Made by a program: the position numbers and the translations under genes. A DNA stretch of 64,000 nucleotides from Methylohalomonas lacus (GTDB lineage: Bacteria; Pseudomonadota; Gammaproteobacteria; Methylohalomonadales; Methylohalomonadaceae): contig NZ_JANUCT010000005.1 in NCBI RefSeq assembly GCF_024808875.1, positions 1 through 64,000 on the forward strand, written 5' to 3'. Below the pieces are notes generated by a model. The model saw only the letters and a list, made by a program, of their open reading frames with translations, searched no databases and was not told where the DNA came from. Below are positions 3,079-27,052 of this stretch, piece after piece (within the stretch, counting starts at the first letter, position 1; the number at the start of each line of letters is the position of its first letter).

Positions 3079-4513
3079 TTCTGCGCGGTAAATACAGATC
3101 CGTGATTGTACCCTCGAAGGCCTCGGCGGCGAAGCCGATGGTTTCCGAGAGTGTCGGGTGTGGGTGTATGGTCAGGGCGAGGTCGCGGGCATCGGCGCCC
3201 ATTTCGATCGCCAGCACGCCCTCGGCGATCAGATCGCCGGCGTGCGGTCCGGTCATGCCGATGCCGAGCACACACTGGGTCTGTTTATCGAACAGGATTT
3301 TCGTCATGCCCTCGTCGCGGCCGAGACCGAGCGCGCGGCCGCTGGCGGCCCAGGGGAACACGCCCTTATCGTAGTCGATGCCTTGTTGCTTCGCTGCAGT
3401 TTCGGTCAGTCCCGCCCAGGCGACTTCCGGGTCGGTGTAGGCCAACGCCGGTATCACGCGATCCTCGAAGCCACTTTTTTCGCCGCAGGCGACCTCGGCG
3501 GCGACCTTGCCCTCGTGACTGGCCTTGTGTGCGAGTAATGGTTCGCCGTTGATGTCACCGATGGCGAAGATGTGCGGGATGTTGCTGCGCATCTGGTCAT
3601 CGACTGGAATGAAGCCACGTTCGTCGACGCGCACACCGGCGCGATCGGCGGCGATGCGATCGCCGTTCGGTTGCCGGCCGATGGCAATCAGCATCGCGTC
3701 GAAGTCGTCACTGGCCGGTGCCTTGTCGCCATCGAATGACACGCTTAACGTGTTCCTGGTCATCTCAACCGCGGTGATCGTCGTGTTCAGGTGAATGGCC
3801 TCGTAGCGGGGTTTGATGCGTTTCAGCAGCGGCCGCACCAGGTCACTGTCGACACCCGGCATGAGTTGATCCTGCATCTCGACCACGCTGACTCTCGAAC
3901 CGAACGCGTCGTAGATCGTCGCCATCTCCAGGCCGATGATACCGCCGCCGACGACCAGCAGTTTCTCCGGGATCGCGTCGAGTGCGAGCGCGCCGGTCGA
4001 ATCCATGATGCGCGGGTCATCGTGATCCGGTTTCAGGATGAGCTCCGGCAACGTGGTCGCACGCGCGCCGGCGGCAATGATCGCCTGGTCAAAACTGATA
4101 TCGTGGCTTTCGTCGTTATGCTCGACCGTGACCGAGTGTGGCGAGCTGAAACGCGCCGTGCCCTGAACTACTGCGACACCGCGTTGTTCGGCCATTTTCG
4201 CCAGGCCGTCGGTGAGTTTCTTCACGACGCTTTCGCTGAAGGCGTGAATCGAGCGGGCGTCGGGATGAATGTTTTGTAGGTCGATACCGAGATCGATGCC
4301 GTGCTCGCCGAGTTCCCCGACTTCGGCGATGACCCGGGCGATGTGCAGCAATGCCTTGGACGGAATGCAGCCGACGTTGAGACAGACGCCGCCGAGTACC
4401 GGGTAGCGTTCGACCAGCGTGACGCGCTTGCCGAGATCGGCGGCGCGAAAGGCGGCGGTGTAGCCGCCGGGGCCGGCGCCGAGTACGAGCAGTTCGGTCT
4501 GTTCAGTGTTCAT
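3071..4513 (-). CDS. lpdA: Dihydrolipoyl dehydrogenase (E3 of the pyruvate dehydrogenase complex)
   Basis: Flavoenzyme that reoxidises the dihydrolipoyl groups of the E2 subunit and passes electrons to NAD+. The 480-residue protein shows the FAD-binding LGAGPGGYTAA (about 11-21), the redox disulfide GGVCLNVGCIPSK (Cys44 and Cys49), the NAD-binding GGGIIGLEMA, and the C-terminal active-site HPHPTLSE with the catalytic His. The ATG at 4513 shares a base with the aceF TGA, so the two are translationally coupled; the TTG just before it is less likely. It is the last gene of the aceE-aceF-lpdA cluster. The stop codon lies inside a heptamer repeat. Confidence 0.95.
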   Translation of the reverse strand: MNTEQTELLVLGAGPGGYTAAFRAADLGKRVTLVERYPVLGGVCLNVGCIPSKALLHIARVIAEVGELGEHGIDLGIDLQNIHPDARSIHAFSESVVKKLTDGLAKMAEQRGVAVVQGTARFSSPHSVTVEHNDESHDISFDQAIIAAGARATTLPELILKPDHDDPRIMDSTGALALDAIPEKLLVVGGGIIGLEMATIYDAFGSRVSVVEMQDQLMPGVDSDLVRPLLKRIKPRYEAIHLNTTITAVEMTRNTLSVSFDGDKAPASDDFDAMLIAIGRQPNGDRIAADRAGVRVDERGFIPVDDQMRSNIPHIFAIGDINGEPLLAHKASHEGKVAAEVACGEKSGFEDRVIPALAYTDPEVAWAGLTETAAKQQGIDYDKGVFPWAASGRALGLGRDEGMTKILFDKQTQCVLGIGMTGPHAGDLIAEGVLAIEMGADARDLALTIHPHPTLSETIGFAAEAFEGTITDLYLPRRNK

Positions 4514-6013: not shown

Positions 6014-8690
6014 CCGTCACCGGATTCGGTTTGTCCGGATCGATATCGTATTTCTTGATCGCCTCGCTGACCCTGGCAACCTCGATTTGTCCTTCATCGG
6101 CCAGTGCCTTGAGTGCGGCGACAACGATGTGGTAGCGATTGACCTCGAAGAATTCACGCAGTTTGGTGCGCGAGTCGCTGCGGCCGAAGCCGTCCGTGCC
6201 AAGCGTGACGTAGTGGCGCGGCACGAACTCGCGGATCTGATCGGCGACGGCCTTGATGTAATCACTGGCGGCGATGACCGGTCCGGTGGTATCGGCCAGC
6301 TGCTGTTCGACGTAGCTGCGGCGCGGTGCTGCCTCCGGGTTCAGTCGGTTCCAGCGCGTGCAATCAAGGCCGTCGCGGCGCAGCTCGTTGAAGCTGGTCG
6401 CGCTCCAGACATCGGCGGCGACGTCGAAATCATTCGTCAGTAATTCGGCGGCGGCGATTGCTTCGCGCAGGATGGTGCCGGCACCGAGCAGCTGTACCCG
6501 CCTGTCGCCCTGCTTGCCGGTCTGCAGCCGGTACAGTCCCCTGATGATGCCGCCCTCGACGCCGTCGGGCAGCGGCGGGTGGTGGTAGTTCTCGTTCATC
6601 AGGGTGATGTAGTAGTAGACGTCCTCGCAGTCGACGAACATGCGCTGCATGCCGTGATGAATGATCACCGCCAGTTCGTAGGCAAATGTCGGGTCGTAGC
6701 TGATGCAGTTGGGCACTGTCGAGGCGAGCAGGTGACTGTGGCCGTCCTGGTGCTGCAGGCCCTCGCCGGCCAGGGTGGTGCGGCCGGCAGTACCGCCGAG
6801 CAGGAAACCGCGCGCCCGACTGTCGCCGGCGGCCCAGCACAGGTCGCCGACGCGCTGGAAGCCGAACATCGAATAGAAAATGAAGAACGGCACCATCTGC
6901 AGGCCGTGTGTACGGTAGGCGGTGGCGGCGGCCAGCCAGGACGATATCGAGCCGGCCTCGGTGATGCCTTCCTCGAGGATCTGGCCCTTTTGATCCTCGC
7001 GATAATACATGACCTGGTCGTGGTCGACCGGCTCGTACAGCTGGCCGACGGCCGAGTAGATCCCCAGCGAACGGAACAGGCCTTCCATGCCGAAAGTGCG
7101 CGCCTCGTCCGGTATGATTGGCACGATGCGGTCACCGAGGTGTTCATCCTTGACCAGGATGTTGAGCAGGCGCACGAACGCCATGGTCGTCGAGATGTCG
7201 CGATCCCCCGAGCCGGCGAGCAGTTTGTCGAACGCCGACAGTGCCGGAATCTGCAACGGTTCGGCGTGCGGCCAGCGGCGGAAGTAGGCGCCGCCGAGTT
7301 CCGCGCGCCGGGCCTTGATGTATTGCACTTCCTCGCTGTCGTCATCAGGCCGGTAGAACGGCGCTTCGCCGATGTCTTCGTCGCTGATGGGGATGTTGAA
7401 GCGGTCGCGGAATTTCTTCAGCGCCGCTTCGTCCATCTTCTTCTGCTGGTGGGTGATGTTCTGGCCCTCGCCGGCTTCGCCCATGCCGTAGCCCTTGACC
7501 GTCTTGGCGAGGATGACGGTGGGCTGGCCCTGGTGGCGGACCGCCTCGGCGTAGGCGGCGTAGACCTTGTGCGGGTCGTGACCGCCGCGGTTCAGGCGCC
7601 AGATGTCCTCGTCGGTCATGTTCGCGACCATGGCCTTGAGTTCCGGGTACTTGCCGAAGAAGTGTTCGCGCACGTAGTCGCCGCTGTGTGCCTTGTAGGC
7701 CTGGTATTCGCCGTCGACACATTCCTCCATACGCTGCTGCAGACGGCCGTGCGTGTCGCGCGCAATCAGCGGATCCCAGTAGGAGCCCCAGATCACCTTG
7801 ATGACGTTCCAGCCGGCGCCGAGGAAGTCGCCCTCGAGTTCCTGAATGATTTTGCCGTTGCCGCGCACCGGTCCGTCGAGACGCTGCAGATTGCAATTGA
7901 CGACGAAGATCAGGTTGTCGAGCTTTTCACGCGCGGCGAGGCCAATTGCGCCCAGCGATTCCGGCTCGTCCATCTCGCCGTCGCCGACGAATGCCCAGAC
8001 CTTGCGGGTCTGTTTTTCGATCAGGCCGCGGTTTTCCAGATAACGCATGAAGCGCGCCTGGTAGATCGCCATGATCGGTGACAGACCCATGGACACGGTC
8101 GGGAATTGCCAGTAGTCCGGCATCAGCCACGGATGCGGATACGATGACAGGCCGCCGCCGTCGACTTCCTCGCGAAAGCGCTGCAGCTGTTCGGCGCCCA
8201 GTTCGCCGCCGATGTAGGAACGCGCGTAGATGCCCGGCGCCGAGTGGCCCTGGATGTAGGCGAGATCGGGCAGGCGGTCGTCAGTCGGCGCGTGCAGGAA
8301 ATGATTCATCAATACATCATAAAGCGTCGCCGACGACGCGAAGCTGGCGATGTGGCCGCCGAGTTCCGGATTGCGGCGGTTGGCCTGTACCACCATGGCC
8401 AGCGCATTCCAGCGGATCAGCGAGCGGATGCGCCATTCGATGGCCGGGTCGCCGGGCGAACGTGCCTCGCGTGACGGCGGGATGGTATTGACGTAGGCGG
8501 TATTGGCGTAGAAGGGCAGGTAGGCGCCGCTGCGGCGGGCTTTCTCGACCAGACGTTCAAGCAGGAAGTGGGCACGCTCCAGACTGTCGCTGGCCATGAC
8601 CGCATCCAGGGATTCCAGCCACTCGCGCGTCTCCTGCGGGTCGACGTCGTCCGGGTCTTGCGGTGCTGAAGCTTGATCGTCGTCGGTCAT
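6009..8690 (-). CDS. aceE: Pyruvate dehydrogenase E1 component (homodimeric type)
   Basis: Thiamine-diphosphate enzyme that decarboxylates pyruvate and reductively acetylates E2. The 893-residue length matches the single-chain gammaproteobacterial E1 (E. coli 887). The thiamine-binding motif runs from GDGEMDEPES to VVNCN (roughly residues 225-260), and a conserved 'IQGHSAPGIYARSY' lies upstream of it. The ATG at 8690 is preferred over a start 12 codons earlier because it matches the MTDDDQ-type opening and has a purine-rich GGGAAAAG stretch before it. The gene leads the aceE-aceF-lpdA operon. No pdhR-type regulator is nearby. Confidence 0.95.
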   Translation of the reverse strand: MTDDDQASAPQDPDDVDPQETREWLESLDAVMASDSLERAHFLLERLVEKARRSGAYLPFYANTAYVNTIPPSREARSPGDPAIEWRIRSLIRWNALAMVVQANRRNPELGGHIASFASSATLYDVLMNHFLHAPTDDRLPDLAYIQGHSAPGIYARSYIGGELGAEQLQRFREEVDGGGLSSYPHPWLMPDYWQFPTVSMGLSPIMAIYQARFMRYLENRGLIEKQTRKVWAFVGDGEMDEPESLGAIGLAAREKLDNLIFVVNCNLQRLDGPVRGNGKIIQELEGDFLGAGWNVIKVIWGSYWDPLIARDTHGRLQQRMEECVDGEYQAYKAHSGDYVREHFFGKYPELKAMVANMTDEDIWRLNRGGHDPHKVYAAYAEAVRHQGQPTVILAKTVKGYGMGEAGEGQNITHQQKKMDEAALKKFRDRFNIPISDEDIGEAPFYRPDDDSEEVQYIKARRAELGGAYFRRWPHAEPLQIPALSAFDKLLAGSGDRDISTTMAFVRLLNILVKDEHLGDRIVPIIPDEARTFGMEGLFRSLGIYSAVGQLYEPVDHDQVMYYREDQKGQILEEGITEAGSISSWLAAATAYRTHGLQMVPFFIFYSMFGFQRVGDLCWAAGDSRARGFLLGGTAGRTTLAGEGLQHQDGHSHLLASTVPNCISYDPTFAYELAVIIHHGMQRMFVDCEDVYYYITLMNENYHHPPLPDGVEGGIIRGLYRLQTGKQGDRRVQLLGAGTILREAIAAAELLTNDFDVAADVWSATSFNELRRDGLDCTRWNRLNPEAAPRRSYVEQQLADTTGPVIAASDYIKAVADQIREFVPRHYVTLGTDGFGRSDSRTKLREFFEVNRYHIVVAALKALADEGQIEVARVSEAIKKYDIDPDKPNPVTV

Positions 8691-21706: not shown

Positions 21707-21741
21707 AAAAAAACCGGTCATCGCCTGGGCAATGACCGGTG
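21707..21741 (-). terminator. Intrinsic terminator of TonB receptor gene 1
   Basis: ACCGGTCAT (21713-21721) pairs with ATGACCGGT (21732-21740). On the minus strand the hairpin is followed by a run of seven T. The matching terminator of the second receptor has the same outer stem and a different loop. Confidence 0.85.
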
Positions 21742-21863
21742 GAGGACACCTGAATAGCCAGACCAGCTGAAGGGATAGACTGGGTCTGTGAGTTACCAGG
21801 TGTGTTCGGAGGAAGTCCGGGCGACCATTGCCGCCCGGGACTCTGCTTTCTCTGGAGTAACTT
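21742..21863 (-). other. Structured 3' untranslated region of TonB receptor gene 1 (copy A)
   Basis: Between stop codon and terminator the minus-strand RNA can form two more hairpins. The first, next to the stop, is a GC-rich stem (21815-21823 with 21832-21841). The second is a branched element closed by CACCTG/CAGGTG (21747-21752 with 21797-21802), with an inner stem of CAGACC/GGTCTG type (21759-21766 with 21780-21788). About 105 nt of this region recur with few changes behind the second receptor gene (24448-24567), and the changes leave the stems paired. It could be a regulatory 3' UTR or the source of a small RNA. Confidence 0.55.
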
Positions 21864-24047
21864 CTAGAAGTTAACCGTGACGCCACCTATGAACGTGCGT
21901 TCGAAACCCGGACGCAGACCATTGGCATGATCGGCGATATACAGTTTGTCTGTAAGGTTACGGCCCTGGATCCAAAGTTCCGTGTTGGGTGAGCGCTGCA
22001 GGGTGTAGCTGGCACGGGCTGAAAACAGGGTGCGACTTGCCACTTCGCCCAACACGGCCGGCTCACGAATTTCCAGGAAGTCAGCCGGACCCACAGGATT
22101 ACCATCCTCGTCAGCCAAGACTTGGTCCTTGGTATTCGCTACATCAGTGAAAAAGCTGCCGAAATGACTCATAGTGCCGCTGACATGCCAACCATCGGCA
22201 TGATCGACACCGACTGTCAGACTACCCACATGTTCCGGTATTTCAGGAACACGATTGCCATCCAAGCGACCACCGTCGAATTCCGCACGCGTGTAATTGT
22301 ACGCAAGCTGAGCAAACCAGTTATAGGCGGACCCCGTATATGCCGCTGAATCGAACCGCAGACCTAAATCAACACCATAGGCAATGGAATCGCCGCTGTT
22401 GATAACCAGATCCTGACCATCGATAGTTATCTGTGTATTCACAATGGTATTGCGCAGATCATTGTAGAAAATGGCGGCTTCAGCAGTTACGCCTTTAACA
22501 GCATTGGTTCTCAGTCCGACCTGTGAGTTGATGCCGGTTTCAGGACGAAGCGGAAAATCGCCAGCAGTACGGGCGGCGGCAGGCGTGTACCCACGTTGGA
22601 CACTGGCAAAGACCTGGGTGTCCTGGAAGCCGTCATACAAAGCACTTATGCCGGGAAGCAGTAAAGTGCGATACTCGTTCTGATTCTCGCCACCGGAGGA
22701 TTTTTCCTGCTCATAGTATTCCGCGCGCAGCCCAGGTGTTACTGTCCAATCGCCGAAACTCATAGCATCCTGGAAGAAGACCGAAAATGCCGAAGCATTA
22801 TATTTGTCATCCCGTGTTTGAGTGCCGGGGTTGTCCCGGTCAATAACCTGCCCCTGTGCGCCTTGATGTCGCTTGTCATCCAGGAAATGACGCTCGAAAC
22901 GTACACCCCACTGGAAAGTATGGTCCATGCCGATGGCTTCGACATTGGCGAGCTCCATACGATTCTCGACACCGTAGGTACGGTAGTGTCGATCGCGGCT
23001 GACCATGATGCCCTGTTCTCCAGCGATAAACCTATCATCCGGATCCTCGTATACGAAATCGGGCAAGGCCCCTACGAGAATTGATTCAGGGTCAACAGTG
23101 TAGCGCGGCCGATCCAGGTCGGTTCTGAAGAACTTGCTCGACATCGAGAGATTGTCAGTCACCTGGAAATCATGTGTCAGATCAAACTTGAAATAGTCTA
23201 CGTTGATTTCATGGAATTCCTGACCAAATCGGCCGAGCTTCTTGCGTGGTGCACGATCGAATTCAACTGGCGTTAGGTTGCTTTCGTCATAATCCGAACG
23301 TTCACGAAAGTAGGTGAATGAGCCACCAAGGCTATGACGTGAATTGATATCCCAGTCGGCGCTCGCAAAAAAGTCATCGTACTGGAACTCACTGATATCG
23401 AAAGCGCCATCGCCGTTAAATCCGGTGTACGCGAAAACCATACCAACATCGCCTTCGGTGCGCGTATGCATGAAATGGCGCTTGTTGGCGTTCTGGTTAC
23501 CGACACCGACTTCGACGGTGGTTTCCGGCTCCAGTGTCGGCTGTTTGTTCCGGAAGTTGATGATACCGTGGTTGTTTAGGGGGCCGTGCAGGATCATGCC
23601 GTTGCCCTTGAGTACGTCGACACGCTCGAGTCGTTCCATGGGAGGAGTGTAATGCGCACTGGGGTCGAGATACGAAGAACCATTGATGGGTGTGCCATCT
23701 TCCATCAGTAACGTTTTGCGCGAACGACGACCAGGGGCGCCACGAACCGAGATTCCGCCACGACGGCCATAAATATCATCTTCTAGCGTACGCACGCCGG
23801 GAATAAAATCCAGAGCATCGTGAAGTGTATATGGCCGATAGGTGTCGATTTCCTCATCAGTCAGGATATTAGCTGCACCCGGCGAATAGCGTACTTCGCT
23901 CGGTAATATCTCTTTGACATCAATCGACGGTAGATTACGAATAGTTTCATCAGTGGTGCCCTGGGCGTATACCGGCGCACTGACGACTGCGGCAACGGCC
24001 AGTCCCAGCGTGGTGCCGGGTAGGCCACGGCGTATTGAGTATTTCAT
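21864..24047 (-). CDS. TonB-dependent outer membrane receptor 1 (FecA-like)
   Basis: Energised outer membrane transporter of 727 residues, probably for a ferric chelate. There is a signal peptide (cleavage near VYA, residue 28), a short segment that may hold the TonB box (SIDVKEILP), the plug domain ('ALDFIPGVRTLEDDIYGRRGGISVRGAPGRR' region, about 80-180) and a 22-strand barrel ending in the aromatic-terminated TVNF. There is no N-terminal secretin-like signalling domain, so it is not a FecA-type signal transducer. It shares roughly three quarters or more of its residues with the receptor encoded just upstream, including a 149-bp tract that is almost identical. A substrate cannot be named from sequence. 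Confidence 0.88.
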   Translation of the reverse strand: MKYSIRRGLPGTTLGLAVAAVVSAPVYAQGTTDETIRNLPSIDVKEILPSEVRYSPGAANILTDEEIDTYRPYTLHDALDFIPGVRTLEDDIYGRRGGISVRGAPGRRSRKTLLMEDGTPINGSSYLDPSAHYTPPMERLERVDVLKGNGMILHGPLNNHGIINFRNKQPTLEPETTVEVGVGNQNANKRHFMHTRTEGDVGMVFAYTGFNGDGAFDISEFQYDDFFASADWDINSRHSLGGSFTYFRERSDYDESNLTPVEFDRAPRKKLGRFGQEFHEINVDYFKFDLTHDFQVTDNLSMSSKFFRTDLDRPRYTVDPESILVGALPDFVYEDPDDRFIAGEQGIMVSRDRHYRTYGVENRMELANVEAIGMDHTFQWGVRFERHFLDDKRHQGAQGQVIDRDNPGTQTRDDKYNASAFSVFFQDAMSFGDWTVTPGLRAEYYEQEKSSGGENQNEYRTLLLPGISALYDGFQDTQVFASVQRGYTPAAARTAGDFPLRPETGINSQVGLRTNAVKGVTAEAAIFYNDLRNTIVNTQITIDGQDLVINSGDSIAYGVDLGLRFDSAAYTGSAYNWFAQLAYNYTRAEFDGGRLDGNRVPEIPEHVGSLTVGVDHADGWHVSGTMSHFGSFFTDVANTKDQVLADEDGNPVGPADFLEIREPAVLGEVASRTLFSARASYTLQRSPNTELWIQGRNLTDKLYIADHANGLRPGFERTFIGGVTVNF
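22276..22424 (-). repeat. Near-identical 149-bp tract shared by the two TonB receptor genes (copy 1)
   Basis: 148 of 149 bases agree with 24980-25128, while flanking coding sequence differs every few codons. The tract encodes the barrel segment around 'NSGDSIAYGVDLGLRFDS' and 'AYNWFAQLAYNYTRAEF'. The sharp boundaries suggest recent gene conversion between the tandem paralogues. Confidence 0.8.
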
Positions 24048-24065
24048 TGTTATCTCCCCTCCAGA

Positions 24066-24084
24066 CTACCAAGGGATCTGGTAG
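24066..24084 (-). promoter_or_regulatory. 5' leader hairpin 18 nt before TonB receptor gene 1
   Basis: CTACCA (24066-24071) and TGGTAG (24079-24084) form a 6-bp stem with a 7-nt loop. The GGAGGGGAGA ribosome site lies between the hairpin and the start codon. The second receptor gene has a hairpin at exactly the same distance with a different stem sequence. Confidence 0.55.
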
Positions 24085-24410
24085 CGGTTTAAGTCAGAAT
24101 GGCGTCTTGTGGCTGAACTGCATTAGTCAGACAGCACGGCATGGAAGGTATCAAACAATTTGTTGTAAAAACCCCAGCAAAACCAGAGAGTGTTGTAATT
24201 CCTCTACATTGTAGGAGGAATTCCCAGAGCGGATTGCATGAATTCCTGATCCGGCAATATTAGGCGGTGATTCCGGGCGTAGGGCTGGACACCCACATAT
24301 CGAGCAAGGCGATATTGAAATGTGATCTAACTATTCGCTCACTATGTCTTTTTGCTGCAATGCAGCAACAGAGCTATTAGTTCCGTTCTTATACCGTTCG
24401 CTAGATGCCG
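24085..24410 (-). promoter_or_regulatory. Promoter region of TonB receptor gene 1, with blocks conserved upstream of gene 2
   Basis: No coding potential. Compared with 26814-26960 upstream of the second receptor, the minus strand shares ATTACAACACT, then 17 nt, TTTTTAC, then 9 nt, TTTGATA, then GTGCTGTCTG and GTTCAGCCA, with the spacing of the first three blocks conserved. I cannot assign these to a known sigma factor; the GTC-containing block would suit an extracytoplasmic-function sigma -10 element. No good Fur box is visible. Beyond about 24250 I see nothing further. Confidence 0.45.
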
Positions 24411-24447
24411 AAAAAAAACCGGTCATTGTGCTAAACAATGACCGGTT
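24411..24447 (-). terminator. Intrinsic terminator of TonB receptor gene 2
   Basis: A perfect 12-bp stem (24417-24428 with 24436-24447, AACCGGTCATTG/CAATGACCGGTT) and a 7-nt loop, followed on the minus strand by a run of eight T. Confidence 0.9.
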
Positions 24448-24567
24448 GAGGACACCTGAATAGTCAGACCAGCTGAAGGGATAGACTGGGCCTGTGAGTT
24501 ACCAGGTGTGTTCGGAGGAAGTCCGGGCGGCCCTAGCCGCCCGGGACTCTGTTTTGCCGGTTAACTA
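24448..24567 (-). other. Structured 3' untranslated region of TonB receptor gene 2 (copy B)
   Basis: Same layout as copy A (21742-21863). The stop-proximal GC stem lies at 24521-24531 with 24536-24547. The branched element closed by CACCTG/CAGGTG spans 24453-24508, the same 56-nt length as in copy A. One inner-stem change turns an A-U pair into a G-U pair, and the loop of the stop-proximal hairpin is rewritten while its stem is kept and extended. Confidence 0.55.
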
Positions 24568-26778
24568 CTAGAATTTCACGGTAACGCCGGCTATATAAGT
24601 GCGTTCTGCACCCGGACGCAGGCCGTTCGCTGAATCCGTGATGTACAGTTTATTGGTCAGATTGCGACCCTGGATCCACAGCGTGGTGTTACGTGCGCCC
24701 GGTAACTCATAGCTGGCGCGGGCCGAAAAGAGCGTATGGCTCGGAACTTCACCGAGAACTGCGGGTTCACGGATTTCCAGGGTGTCGCCCGGACCGACAG
24801 GTTCGCCGTCTTCATCCGCCAGTACGAAACCGCCAGTGTTTGCGACGTCGGTGAAGAAACTACCGAAATGGCTGATCGTGCCGCTGACATGCCAGCCGTC
24901 GGTATGCTCTAGGCCGAGCGTGAAACTACCGACATGTTCCGGTATCTCGGGCACCCTGTTGCCGTCAATTTCGCCGGAATCGAATTCCGCACGCGTGTAA
25001 TTGTACGCAAGCTGAGCAAACCAGTTATAGGCGGACCCCGTATATGCCGCTGAATCGAACCGCAGACCTAAATCAACACCATAGGCAATGGAGTCGCCGC
25101 TGTTGATAACCAGATCCTGACCATCGATTGTGATCGGCGTATTAACGATGGTGTTGCGCAGATCGTTATAGAACACGGCTGCTTCGGCGGTTACACCCTG
25201 GAGTACGTTGGTACGGAAACCCAACTGGGAGTTGATACCCGTTTCCGGTCGAAGCGGGAAACCATCAGCTGTACGGGCCGCTGCCGGCGAATAGCCCCGC
25301 TGGACGCTGGCATAGACCTGGGTATCCTCGAACCCATCGTACAATGCGCTGATACCGGGCAGGAGAATCGTGCGATATTCGCTGCCACTTTCTTCAGGGT
25401 CAAACTCCGGGAAAGTACGCGTTTTACGTTGGCTATAGTATTCCGCGCGCAGGCCCGGCGTTACTGTCCAGTCGCCATAATTCATGGCATCCTGGAAAAA
25501 TACCGAGAAGGCGGAAGCCTGATATTGCTCGTTGCGTTGCAGGGCGCCTGTATTATCCCGGTCAATGACTTGGCCCTGTGCACCTTCGTGGCGTTTGTCA
25601 TCCAGAAAATGGCGTTCGAAACGAACCCCCCACTGGAAGGTGTGGTCCAGACCCAGAGCTTCGATATTTGCAAGCTCCATACGATTTTCAATGCCGAACG
25701 TACGATAATGCCGATCACGGCTGACCATTATGCCCTGGTCGCCTGCAATGAATTGATCAGCGGGATCATCATAGACAAAATCGGGTAATGCACCGACTTC
25801 GATGTCCTCGGGGTCGACTGTATAACGGGGGCGATCCAGATCCGTGGCGAAGAACTTGGTTGACATCGACAGGTTATCAGTCATCTGGAAGTCATGGGTC
25901 AGGTCCCATTTGAAATAATCCACGTTGATCTGGTTGAATTCCTGGCCAAAACGCCCGAGCTTTTTACGCGGTGCGAGTGCGAATTCAATCGGTGTCAGAT
26001 TACTTTCGTCATAGTCCGAACGTTCACGGAAGTAGGTGAACGAGGCACCCAGACTATGGCGTGAGTTGATATCCCAGTCGAAACTGGTGAAGAAGTCGTC
26101 GTACTGGAATTCTTCAACATCGAAGCTGCCGTCACCATTGAAGCCGGTATAGGCGAAGACCATGCCGACATCACCCTCGGTACGTGTATGCATGACATGA
26201 CGTTTGTTGGCATTCTGGTTGCCAACGCCGACCTCGATGGTTGTTTCCGGCTCCAGCGTCGGCTGCTTGTTGCGGAAGTTGATAATGCCATGGTTGTTCA
26301 GTGGACCATGCAGAATCATGCCATTACCCTTCAGCACGTCCACGCGCTCAAGTCGTTCCATCGGCGGCGTATAGTGGGCACTCGGATCGAGGTAGGTGGA
26401 AGCATTGATCGGTGTACCATCTTCCATCAACAGGGTTTTTCTTGAACGACGGGAAGGTGCACCACGAATACCTATACCGGAACGCCGGCCATACACATCA
26501 TCATCGATTGTGCGCACACCCGGAACGAAATCCAGTGCATCATGCAGGGTATATGGCCGATAAGTATCGATTTCCTCATCTGTCAGGATGCTGGCGGCAC
26601 CGGGTGCAAATCGAACCTCGCTCGGCAATATCTCCTGGACATCAATGGATGGCAAATTACGAATAGTTTCATCAGTCGTACTCTGGCCATACACCGGTGC
26701 GCTGATAACTGCAGCGATGGCCAGCCCCAATGTGCTACCGGGCAACGCCCGGTATCGTGACCTTATGAATGGTTTCAT
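24568..26778 (-). CDS. TonB-dependent outer membrane receptor 2 (FecA-like)
   Basis: 736-residue paralogue of receptor 1, same orientation, separated from it by its own terminator and promoter region. Signal peptide with cleavage near VYG-Q (about 31-32), possible TonB box in 'SIDVQEILP', plug domain with 'RGAPSRRSRKTLLMEDGTP' and a barrel ending in TVKF. The insertion 'RTFPEFDPEESGSEYR' lengthens one predicted extracellular loop relative to receptor 1 and is the most obvious difference likely to affect substrate choice. No TonB, sigma/anti-sigma or ABC transporter genes are adjacent. Separate terminators suggest the two receptors are expressed from their own promoters. Confidence 0.88.
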   Translation of the reverse strand: MKPFIRSRYRALPGSTLGLAIAAVISAPVYGQSTTDETIRNLPSIDVQEILPSEVRFAPGAASILTDEEIDTYRPYTLHDALDFVPGVRTIDDDVYGRRSGIGIRGAPSRRSRKTLLMEDGTPINASTYLDPSAHYTPPMERLERVDVLKGNGMILHGPLNNHGIINFRNKQPTLEPETTIEVGVGNQNANKRHVMHTRTEGDVGMVFAYTGFNGDGSFDVEEFQYDDFFTSFDWDINSRHSLGASFTYFRERSDYDESNLTPIEFALAPRKKLGRFGQEFNQINVDYFKWDLTHDFQMTDNLSMSTKFFATDLDRPRYTVDPEDIEVGALPDFVYDDPADQFIAGDQGIMVSRDRHYRTFGIENRMELANIEALGLDHTFQWGVRFERHFLDDKRHEGAQGQVIDRDNTGALQRNEQYQASAFSVFFQDAMNYGDWTVTPGLRAEYYSQRKTRTFPEFDPEESGSEYRTILLPGISALYDGFEDTQVYASVQRGYSPAAARTADGFPLRPETGINSQLGFRTNVLQGVTAEAAVFYNDLRNTIVNTPITIDGQDLVINSGDSIAYGVDLGLRFDSAAYTGSAYNWFAQLAYNYTRAEFDSGEIDGNRVPEIPEHVGSFTLGLEHTDGWHVSGTISHFGSFFTDVANTGGFVLADEDGEPVGPGDTLEIREPAVLGEVPSHTLFSARASYELPGARNTTLWIQGRNLTNKLYITDSANGLRPGAERTYIAGVTVKF
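24980..25128 (-). repeat. Near-identical 149-bp tract shared by the two TonB receptor genes (copy 2)
   Basis: Partner of 22276-22424; a single A/G difference near the end. See that entry for interpretation as gene conversion. Confidence 0.8.
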
Positions 26779-26796
26779 TAATTATATCCCCTCTAA

Positions 26797-26813
26797 CTAT
26801 CCGGAACGGATAG
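26797..26813 (-). promoter_or_regulatory. 5' leader hairpin 18 nt before TonB receptor gene 2
   Basis: CTATCCG (26797-26803) and CGGATAG (26807-26813) form a perfect 7-bp inverted repeat with a 3-nt loop, 18 nt before the ATG. Stem bases differ from those of the receptor 1 hairpin but pairing and position are kept. An AGGGGA ribosome site lies between hairpin and start. Confidence 0.55.
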
Positions 26814-27052
26814 GTTTTAGTAATGATTAATCCTGGCTGAACGGAACTGGGCCAGACAGCACAGTTAGAACTTATCAAAACCCCTGTGGTAAAAATCGCG
26901 ATAAAATATGAAAGTGTTGTAATCCTGCAATTCAGGGGAATATTTCCTGATACCTTCGGGTAATTATTCTCGAATAAGGGCGAGAAACGTCCAGGAGGGA
27001 ACGCAGGAGCGCCGGCTGGCTGGCGGTCCCGGCGGTAAAATTTCAGATGATC
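26814..27052 (-). promoter_or_regulatory. Promoter region of TonB receptor gene 2
   Basis: Non-coding. Holds the conserved blocks described for 24085-24410 (minus strand ATTACAACACT, TTTTTAC, TTTGATA, GTGCTGTCTG, GTTCAGCCA). A 7-nt AATGATT half-site near 26820 is too weak to call a Fur box. The part nearest yqhA has no feature I can name. Confidence 0.4.

Follow-up and report, generated by a model that had tools for sequence, protein, structure and literature searches.

The conserved 3' ends of two tandem TonB-dependent receptor genes (A and B) were evaluated in a window of 64,000 nucleotides from Methylohalomonas lacus (bases 1-64000 of contig C5; the genome comprises 2.76 Mb in 38 contigs). 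Each gene was followed by one copy of a 104-nt element in its 3' untranslated region (3' UTR), and the loop of a predicted hairpin in this element was complementary to the Shine-Dalgarno (SD) region of a third TonB receptor gene. The element was regarded as a candidate 3' UTR-derived small RNA (sRNA) for cross-repression of receptors, with its copies homogenised by gene conversion, an assignment to which we gave almost the same weight as to its opposite. The defining features are listed below, with positions in the window unless a contig is named.

21864..24047, minus strand: receptor gene A, 727 aa, tandem paralogue of B
24568..26778, minus strand: receptor gene B, 736 aa, TonB-dependent receptor with plug domain
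21742..21845, minus strand: 3' UTR element, copy A, 104 nt
24448..24551, minus strand: 3' UTR element, copy B, 104 nt
24470..24484, minus strand: proposed seed, copy B, CTATCCCTTCAGCTG, apical loop and 3' arm of hairpin 2
21764..21778, minus strand: proposed seed, copy A, identical to the copy B seed
G000:C5:133472-133486, minus strand: target site, SD region of the third TonB receptor gene
G000:C5:131109-133469, minus strand: third TonB-dependent receptor gene, 786 aa, more than 100 kb from A and B

Complementarity to a third TonB receptor gene

In hairpin 2, the apical loop (AUCCCUUC with its flanks) resembled an anti-SD sequence. Of all leaders compared with this loop, that of the third receptor matched best. 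The segment CAGCUGAGGGGAUAG of the third receptor paired with CUAUCCCUUCAGCUG of the element over 15 contiguous bases, including one G-U pair; this segment contained the SD and ended two bases before the start codon. The corresponding pattern CAGCTGARGGGATAG was searched in the entire genome, and leader statistics were calculated for 369 leaders from 464 kb. Without mismatch, the pattern was found only in the third-receptor leader and, in antisense, in the two UTR copies. No site differed at a single position; three differed at two, among them a tRNA-like sequence and a palindromic hairpin. The chance expectation for both strands was about 0.01 by our own arithmetic. The longest helix formed by the element with at most one G-U pair was 15 bp for the third receptor, whereas it did not exceed 10 bp for the other 368 leaders. 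TonB receptors were fixed as the target class in the shuffle test because the parent genes are TonB receptors themselves, and only 5 of 17,965 dinucleotide shuffles reached 15 bp with any of the nine TonB receptor leaders (P about 3e-4). None of the real 3' stretches of the genome (n = 366) reached this length, their longest helix being 13 bp. Moreover, the seed core AUCCCUUC was predicted to be 86-100% unpaired in the free element, and co-folding with either copy gave the 15-bp duplex with a gain of 11-16 kcal/mol over the separate folds. Trans-acting sRNAs are characterised by an accessible seed that can pair with the translation start of their target, and the predicted pairing supplies such a seed.

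The loop also showed enriched pairing in the nine receptor leaders as a class (P 0.0016; P 0.05 when A, B and the best target were set aside, leaving six). This enrichment was not relied on, because receptor leaders also bind the 16S anti-SD better (P 0.005) and because 5 of 150 shuffled probes equalled it. The linker motifs CUUCCUCC and GUGUCCUCC were rejected as seeds, being no better than other C-rich pieces.

Folds of the element and gene conversion between the receptor genes

The two copies of the element were identical at 99 of 104 positions. The first-pass annotation of this DNA had described about 105 nearly identical nt between stop codon and terminator; the near-identity was confirmed, but the distance from stop to terminator was about 120 nt, of which the matching part occupied 104 nt. 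The 16-18 nt between the stop codon and the element were far less similar in the two genes, in agreement with the remark that the sequence around the stops differs. The conserved block began just before hairpin 1, and the homology stopped at the U-run of the terminator. The terminators were read directly from the sequence, and the structures given here are predicted folds, which followed the same order in both copies (GC hairpin, irregular hairpin, terminator).

21813..21843, minus strand: hairpin 1 (GC stem), copy A, z -4.7
24519..24549, minus strand: hairpin 1 (GC stem), copy B, z -4.4
21746..21803, minus strand: hairpin 2, copy A, irregular stem, z -2.9
24452..24509, minus strand: hairpin 2, copy B, irregular stem, z -2.1
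21707..21740, minus strand: intrinsic terminator of gene A, 7-U tail, arms as in B, loop different
24411..24447, minus strand: intrinsic terminator of gene B, 8-U tail

The stem of hairpin 1 still paired in both copies, as had been claimed; its loop was only partly rewritten (two of four bases), and the stem itself carried a change from a G-U pair in copy A to a G-C pair in copy B. Hairpin 2, formerly described as a branched structure of 56 nt, was instead one irregular, unbranched stem-loop; it measured 58 nt, was interrupted by internal loops and ended in an apical loop of 8 nt. Its folding alone was only moderately above that of shuffles in either copy. The terminators had stems of 12-13 pairs followed by 7-8 U; their arms were identical in A and B and their loops were different, as previously stated. 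The U-tail was suited to Hfq, for which a gene is present in the genome, and a terminator with such a tail is one mark of type II 3' UTR-derived sRNAs. Compared with dinucleotide shuffles, the element plus terminator had z values of -6.0 and -7.2 in the two copies. Without the terminator, the value was -4.5 for copy A and -2.6 for copy B, the latter for a 103-nt stretch that began inside hairpin 1. A scan for sigma-70-like promoters found none near the element on the minus strand; hence, processing was assumed rather than a promoter of its own, and the missing promoter would fit processing from the mRNA. On the plus strand, hairpin 1 (21816-21839 and 24522-24545) was followed by CTGTTTT or CTGCTTT, with a weak terminator score for antisense transcription. 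The plus-strand GGAGGAAGTCCGGGC bore a passing likeness to a conserved segment of RNase P RNA, which was dropped because no Rfam match was found.

Two of the five differences in the element were located in stems, and both positions still paired (G-U/G-C and A-U/G-U), which bore out the statement that pairing is kept through a G-U change. Covariation between the two copies was not significant (P about 0.06-0.16); they held a single double compensatory change, located in the terminator. The three G-U stem variants were all on the mRNA strand, and the opposite strand would have mismatches at these positions. This placement is a small hint that the RNA of the mRNA strand matters, and it would arise by chance in about 1 of 8 cases. 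The linkers and loops were conserved like the stems, except for the loops of hairpin 1 and the terminator.

A further block of near-identity was found within the coding regions.

22276..22424, minus strand: gene conversion tract in coding region A, 149 nt
24980..25128, minus strand: gene conversion tract in coding region B, 149 nt

The coding tract was identical at 148 of 149 positions, including all 24 fourfold sites, whereas the fourfold-degenerate sites outside it were identical at only 102 of 283 (36%), near saturation. Codon-column shuffles never gave fewer than 14 differences in a window of this size. A sharp, near-identical block in diverged paralogues that includes the silent sites is the pattern by which gene conversion is recognised, and the sequence of the tract indicates recent conversion between A and B. 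The divergence of the element (5/104) was far below the fourfold differences outside the tract (181/283; P about 2e-28), which places the similarity of the copies far beyond chance for DNA of the age of this duplication. It was not distinguishable from that at the tract's fourfold sites (0/24; P 0.58) and was somewhat higher in the element than over the whole tract (1/149; P 0.04). Within the tail, the terminator was more divergent than the rest (P 0.014). The UTR block fits gene conversion, though without silent sites as a control, and the near-identity of the copies is most simply attributed to conversion, whether or not selection on the RNA also took part. Since a conversion tract lies in the same gene pair, the identity of the element is explicable by conversion and is weak evidence for function.

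The regions upstream of A and B showed short conserved blocks in decayed sequence, with about 60% identity overall, which reads as the usual picture for ancient duplicates. These blocks, at 24085-24200 and 26815-26930 on the minus strand (TTACAACACT, TTTGATA, GTGCTGTCTG and GTTCAGCCA), are probably promoter and regulator sites.

Receptor genes, further copies and alternative explanations

The proteins A and B were 84% identical. Receptor B matched the plug domain PF07715 (E 1e-13) and TIGR01783 below the cut-off of that family, and it matched the FecA structures 1kmo/1pnz with E 2e-19; on sequence, it appears to be a weak relative of FecA and other siderophore receptors. The closest homologues of both receptors belonged mostly to Gammaproteobacteria (Salinisphaera, Hydrocarboniphaga, Marinobacter and Ectothiorhodospiraceae). 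A further paralogue in the genome (L026, G000:C1:61588-63813) was 31% identical; it had an ordinary terminator-like hairpin soon after its stop, and the element was absent.

Sequence and covariance-model searches found just two copies of the element in its own genome, which was the only member of its order in the genome set searched. Loci of homologous receptors were collected by a contig scan, which gave none with two proteins and 43 loci with five proteins; the 3' flanks of 27 were read. The covariance model R1 over 43 sources (the window and homologous-receptor loci) recovered only the two copies, and many of the 27 receptors had a hairpin or terminator of unrelated sequence behind the gene. 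A mobile or repeated element was rejected, as the genome held two copies only, plasmids and phages had none, and a search of viral contigs with an exact 19-mer was likewise negative. No match in the window reached the gathering score in Rfam 15. The sub-threshold matches to PtaRNA1, RT-13, IS102 and c4-a1b1 were far below their gathering scores and were dismissed as chance. Behind two homologous receptors, in L043 (Stutzerimonas kunmingensis) from base 6100 and in L028 from base 3600, a long inverted repeat (GTAGGAGCGAATTTATTCGCG ... CGCGAACGAGTTCGCTCCTAC) was seen, which looks like the repetitive extragenic palindromic (REP)-type repeat of pseudomonads.

Several results weigh against a functional sRNA. 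The sequence search found the element in none of 94 genomes of the same class, the covariance model R1 gave no match over 369 genomes of that class, and no element lay behind the 27 homologous receptors with flanks read (49-62% identity). Its structure and pairing are therefore predicted from a single genome, the element being absent from every other genome examined. The first-pass annotation had proposed such a covariance-model search for relatives and had taken a lack of further copies and of covariation as speaking against its own claim, which is largely what was found. The predicted stability was unexceptional for the genome, copy B being 24th of 160 sampled 3' regions. Five random changes left all pairs intact in 6-13% of trials; with this figure and the conversion tract, the earlier argument that kept stems and conservation stronger than that of the coding ends imply a functional RNA is weak. 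Only one strong target was found. The SDs of receptor leaders were stronger than those of other genes, which explains much of the class-wide pairing with C-rich probes, and we estimate the chance probability of some 15-bp helix with any leader among all genes at very roughly 8%. In co-folding, the leader of gene A brought no gain and that of gene B only 3.5 kcal/mol. The earlier suggestion of an sRNA from the 3' end has lost its argument from conservation; it is modestly supported on grounds that are new, namely, the unique 15-nt complementarity between the element and the SD of the third receptor.

The simplest competing explanation is that these are ordinary 3' ends. The hairpins would serve only as terminators and as a barrier to 3' exonucleases on the mRNA; the identity would reflect conversion only, and the complementarity would be coincidental. 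This explanation is entirely plausible, though it falls short of being probable. Conversion between A and B is attested by the coding tract, and the converted lengths are of similar scale (about 105-150 nt). In divergence, the element did not differ from the fourfold sites of that tract, and its linkers and loops, save those of hairpin 1 and the terminator, were conserved like the stems, as conversion predicts. Covariation was not significant, further copies were not found and the stability was usual for the genome. However, the divergence of the element was somewhat above that of the tract overall, and the seed region was invariant between the copies. Furthermore, coincidence would have to account for a 15-bp match, unique in the genome, to the SD of one of only nine TonB receptors. 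If instead the element had been kept base for base by purifying selection since the ancient duplication, without conversion, nearly every base would be functional. The extent of the block from just before hairpin 1 to the U-run agrees with this, as do the identical terminator arms around a different loop and the higher divergence of the terminator. We consider it very improbable nonetheless: conversion is evident in the adjoining coding region, single-stranded linkers are unchanged while fourfold sites are saturated, the upstream regions show the usual short blocks, and homologous receptors in other genera have no element.

Feedback on the parent genes was also considered, in which the loop would pair with the SD of A and B, within the mRNA or in trans, and limit their own translation, a mode of control known from icaR and from OppZ and CarZ.

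24048..24097, minus strand: leader of gene A with its SD, perhaps a weaker target of the loop, interrupted helix
26779..26828, minus strand: leader of gene B with its SD, perhaps a weaker target of the loop, 9-bp uninterrupted helix

In duplex energy with the loop, gene A ranked 3rd and gene B 19th among the 369 leaders, and only 0.4% of random leader pairs matched these ranks; the leader of gene B also offered its uninterrupted helix. This enrichment arose partly from strong SDs, the co-folding gains were absent or small, and the third receptor was a far better target, which makes feedback an unlikely explanation. Apart from this pairing, a possible 6-bp hairpin was noted just before the SD in the leaders of A (24048-24085) and B (26779-26815) on the minus strand, CTACCA/TGGTAG in one and CTATCC/GGATAG in the other. 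Two compensatory pair changes between A and B were seen by eye, and the lowest-energy fold of leader A paired across the SD instead of forming this hairpin.

Proposed mechanism and relation to known systems

The sRNA candidate could act as follows, where we infer a transcript, its processing, the binding of Hfq and the repression. The mRNAs of A and B would be cut near the stop codon, and a fragment of about 140 nt released from the 3' end would persist by means of its hairpins and of Hfq on the U-tail. The loop UAUCCCUUC would nucleate pairing and so shield the third receptor's ribosome-binding site; its weaker pairing may perhaps also shield those of genes A and B. Synthesis of one receptor would lower that of another. 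The more specific scheme, in which the tandem receptor 3' UTRs carry a duplicated sRNA that is kept identical by conversion and represses the third receptor, giving a hierarchy of importers, is possible but rather doubtful.

Judged from its sequence, the element fits the 3' UTR-derived base-pairing sRNAs as a candidate member. By analogy, OppZ and CarZ would be the closest kind in origin, icaR in its C-rich 3' motif, and OmrA/OmrB or SisA/CrfA in target class. OppZ and CarZ of Vibrio cholerae are 3' UTR-derived sRNAs that are produced by RNase E and autoregulate their own operons (PMC7398697). The element shares with them a structured 3' UTR that closes with an intrinsic terminator, a position after genes for transport or biosynthesis, and a stretch complementary to a translation start; Hfq is encoded in this genome as well. 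Unlike OppZ and CarZ, which act on their own transcripts, its best target is a different, unlinked gene, and its processing would have to be presumed. The icaR mRNA of Staphylococcus aureus carries the motif UCCCCUG in its 3' UTR; this motif binds the SD of its own transcript, and cleavage by RNase III follows (PMC3868564). An exposed C-rich 3' UTR motif complementary to an SD is common to both cases, whereas self-pairing is weak here. OmrA and OmrB of enterobacteria, and SisA with its sponge CrfA of Caulobacter, are sRNAs that act on TonB receptor mRNAs (PMC11162775, PMC12559287). Near-duplicate RNAs with a common seed and TonB-dependent receptor mRNAs among the targets resemble OmrA/OmrB and SisA; those are sRNAs in their own right, whereas the element is the tail of a receptor mRNA without a nearby sigma-70 promoter. 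Gene conversion between bacterial duplicates has been described for tufA and tufB of Salmonella (PMC5485169). As in that pair, continuous converted blocks occur between duplicates of one genome; in contrast to it, the paralogues A and B have diverged strongly beyond these blocks, one of the near-identical stretches being in the 3' UTR.

In open-licence papers, no report linking TonB-dependent receptors with a UTR-derived sRNA was found. These results caution against taking near-identical duplicated UTRs as functionally conserved where the gene pair itself undergoes conversion. If the proposed assignment is true, the mRNAs of TonB receptors would join the sources of 3'-end sRNAs, and one receptor would be able to control another directly, without a transcription factor.

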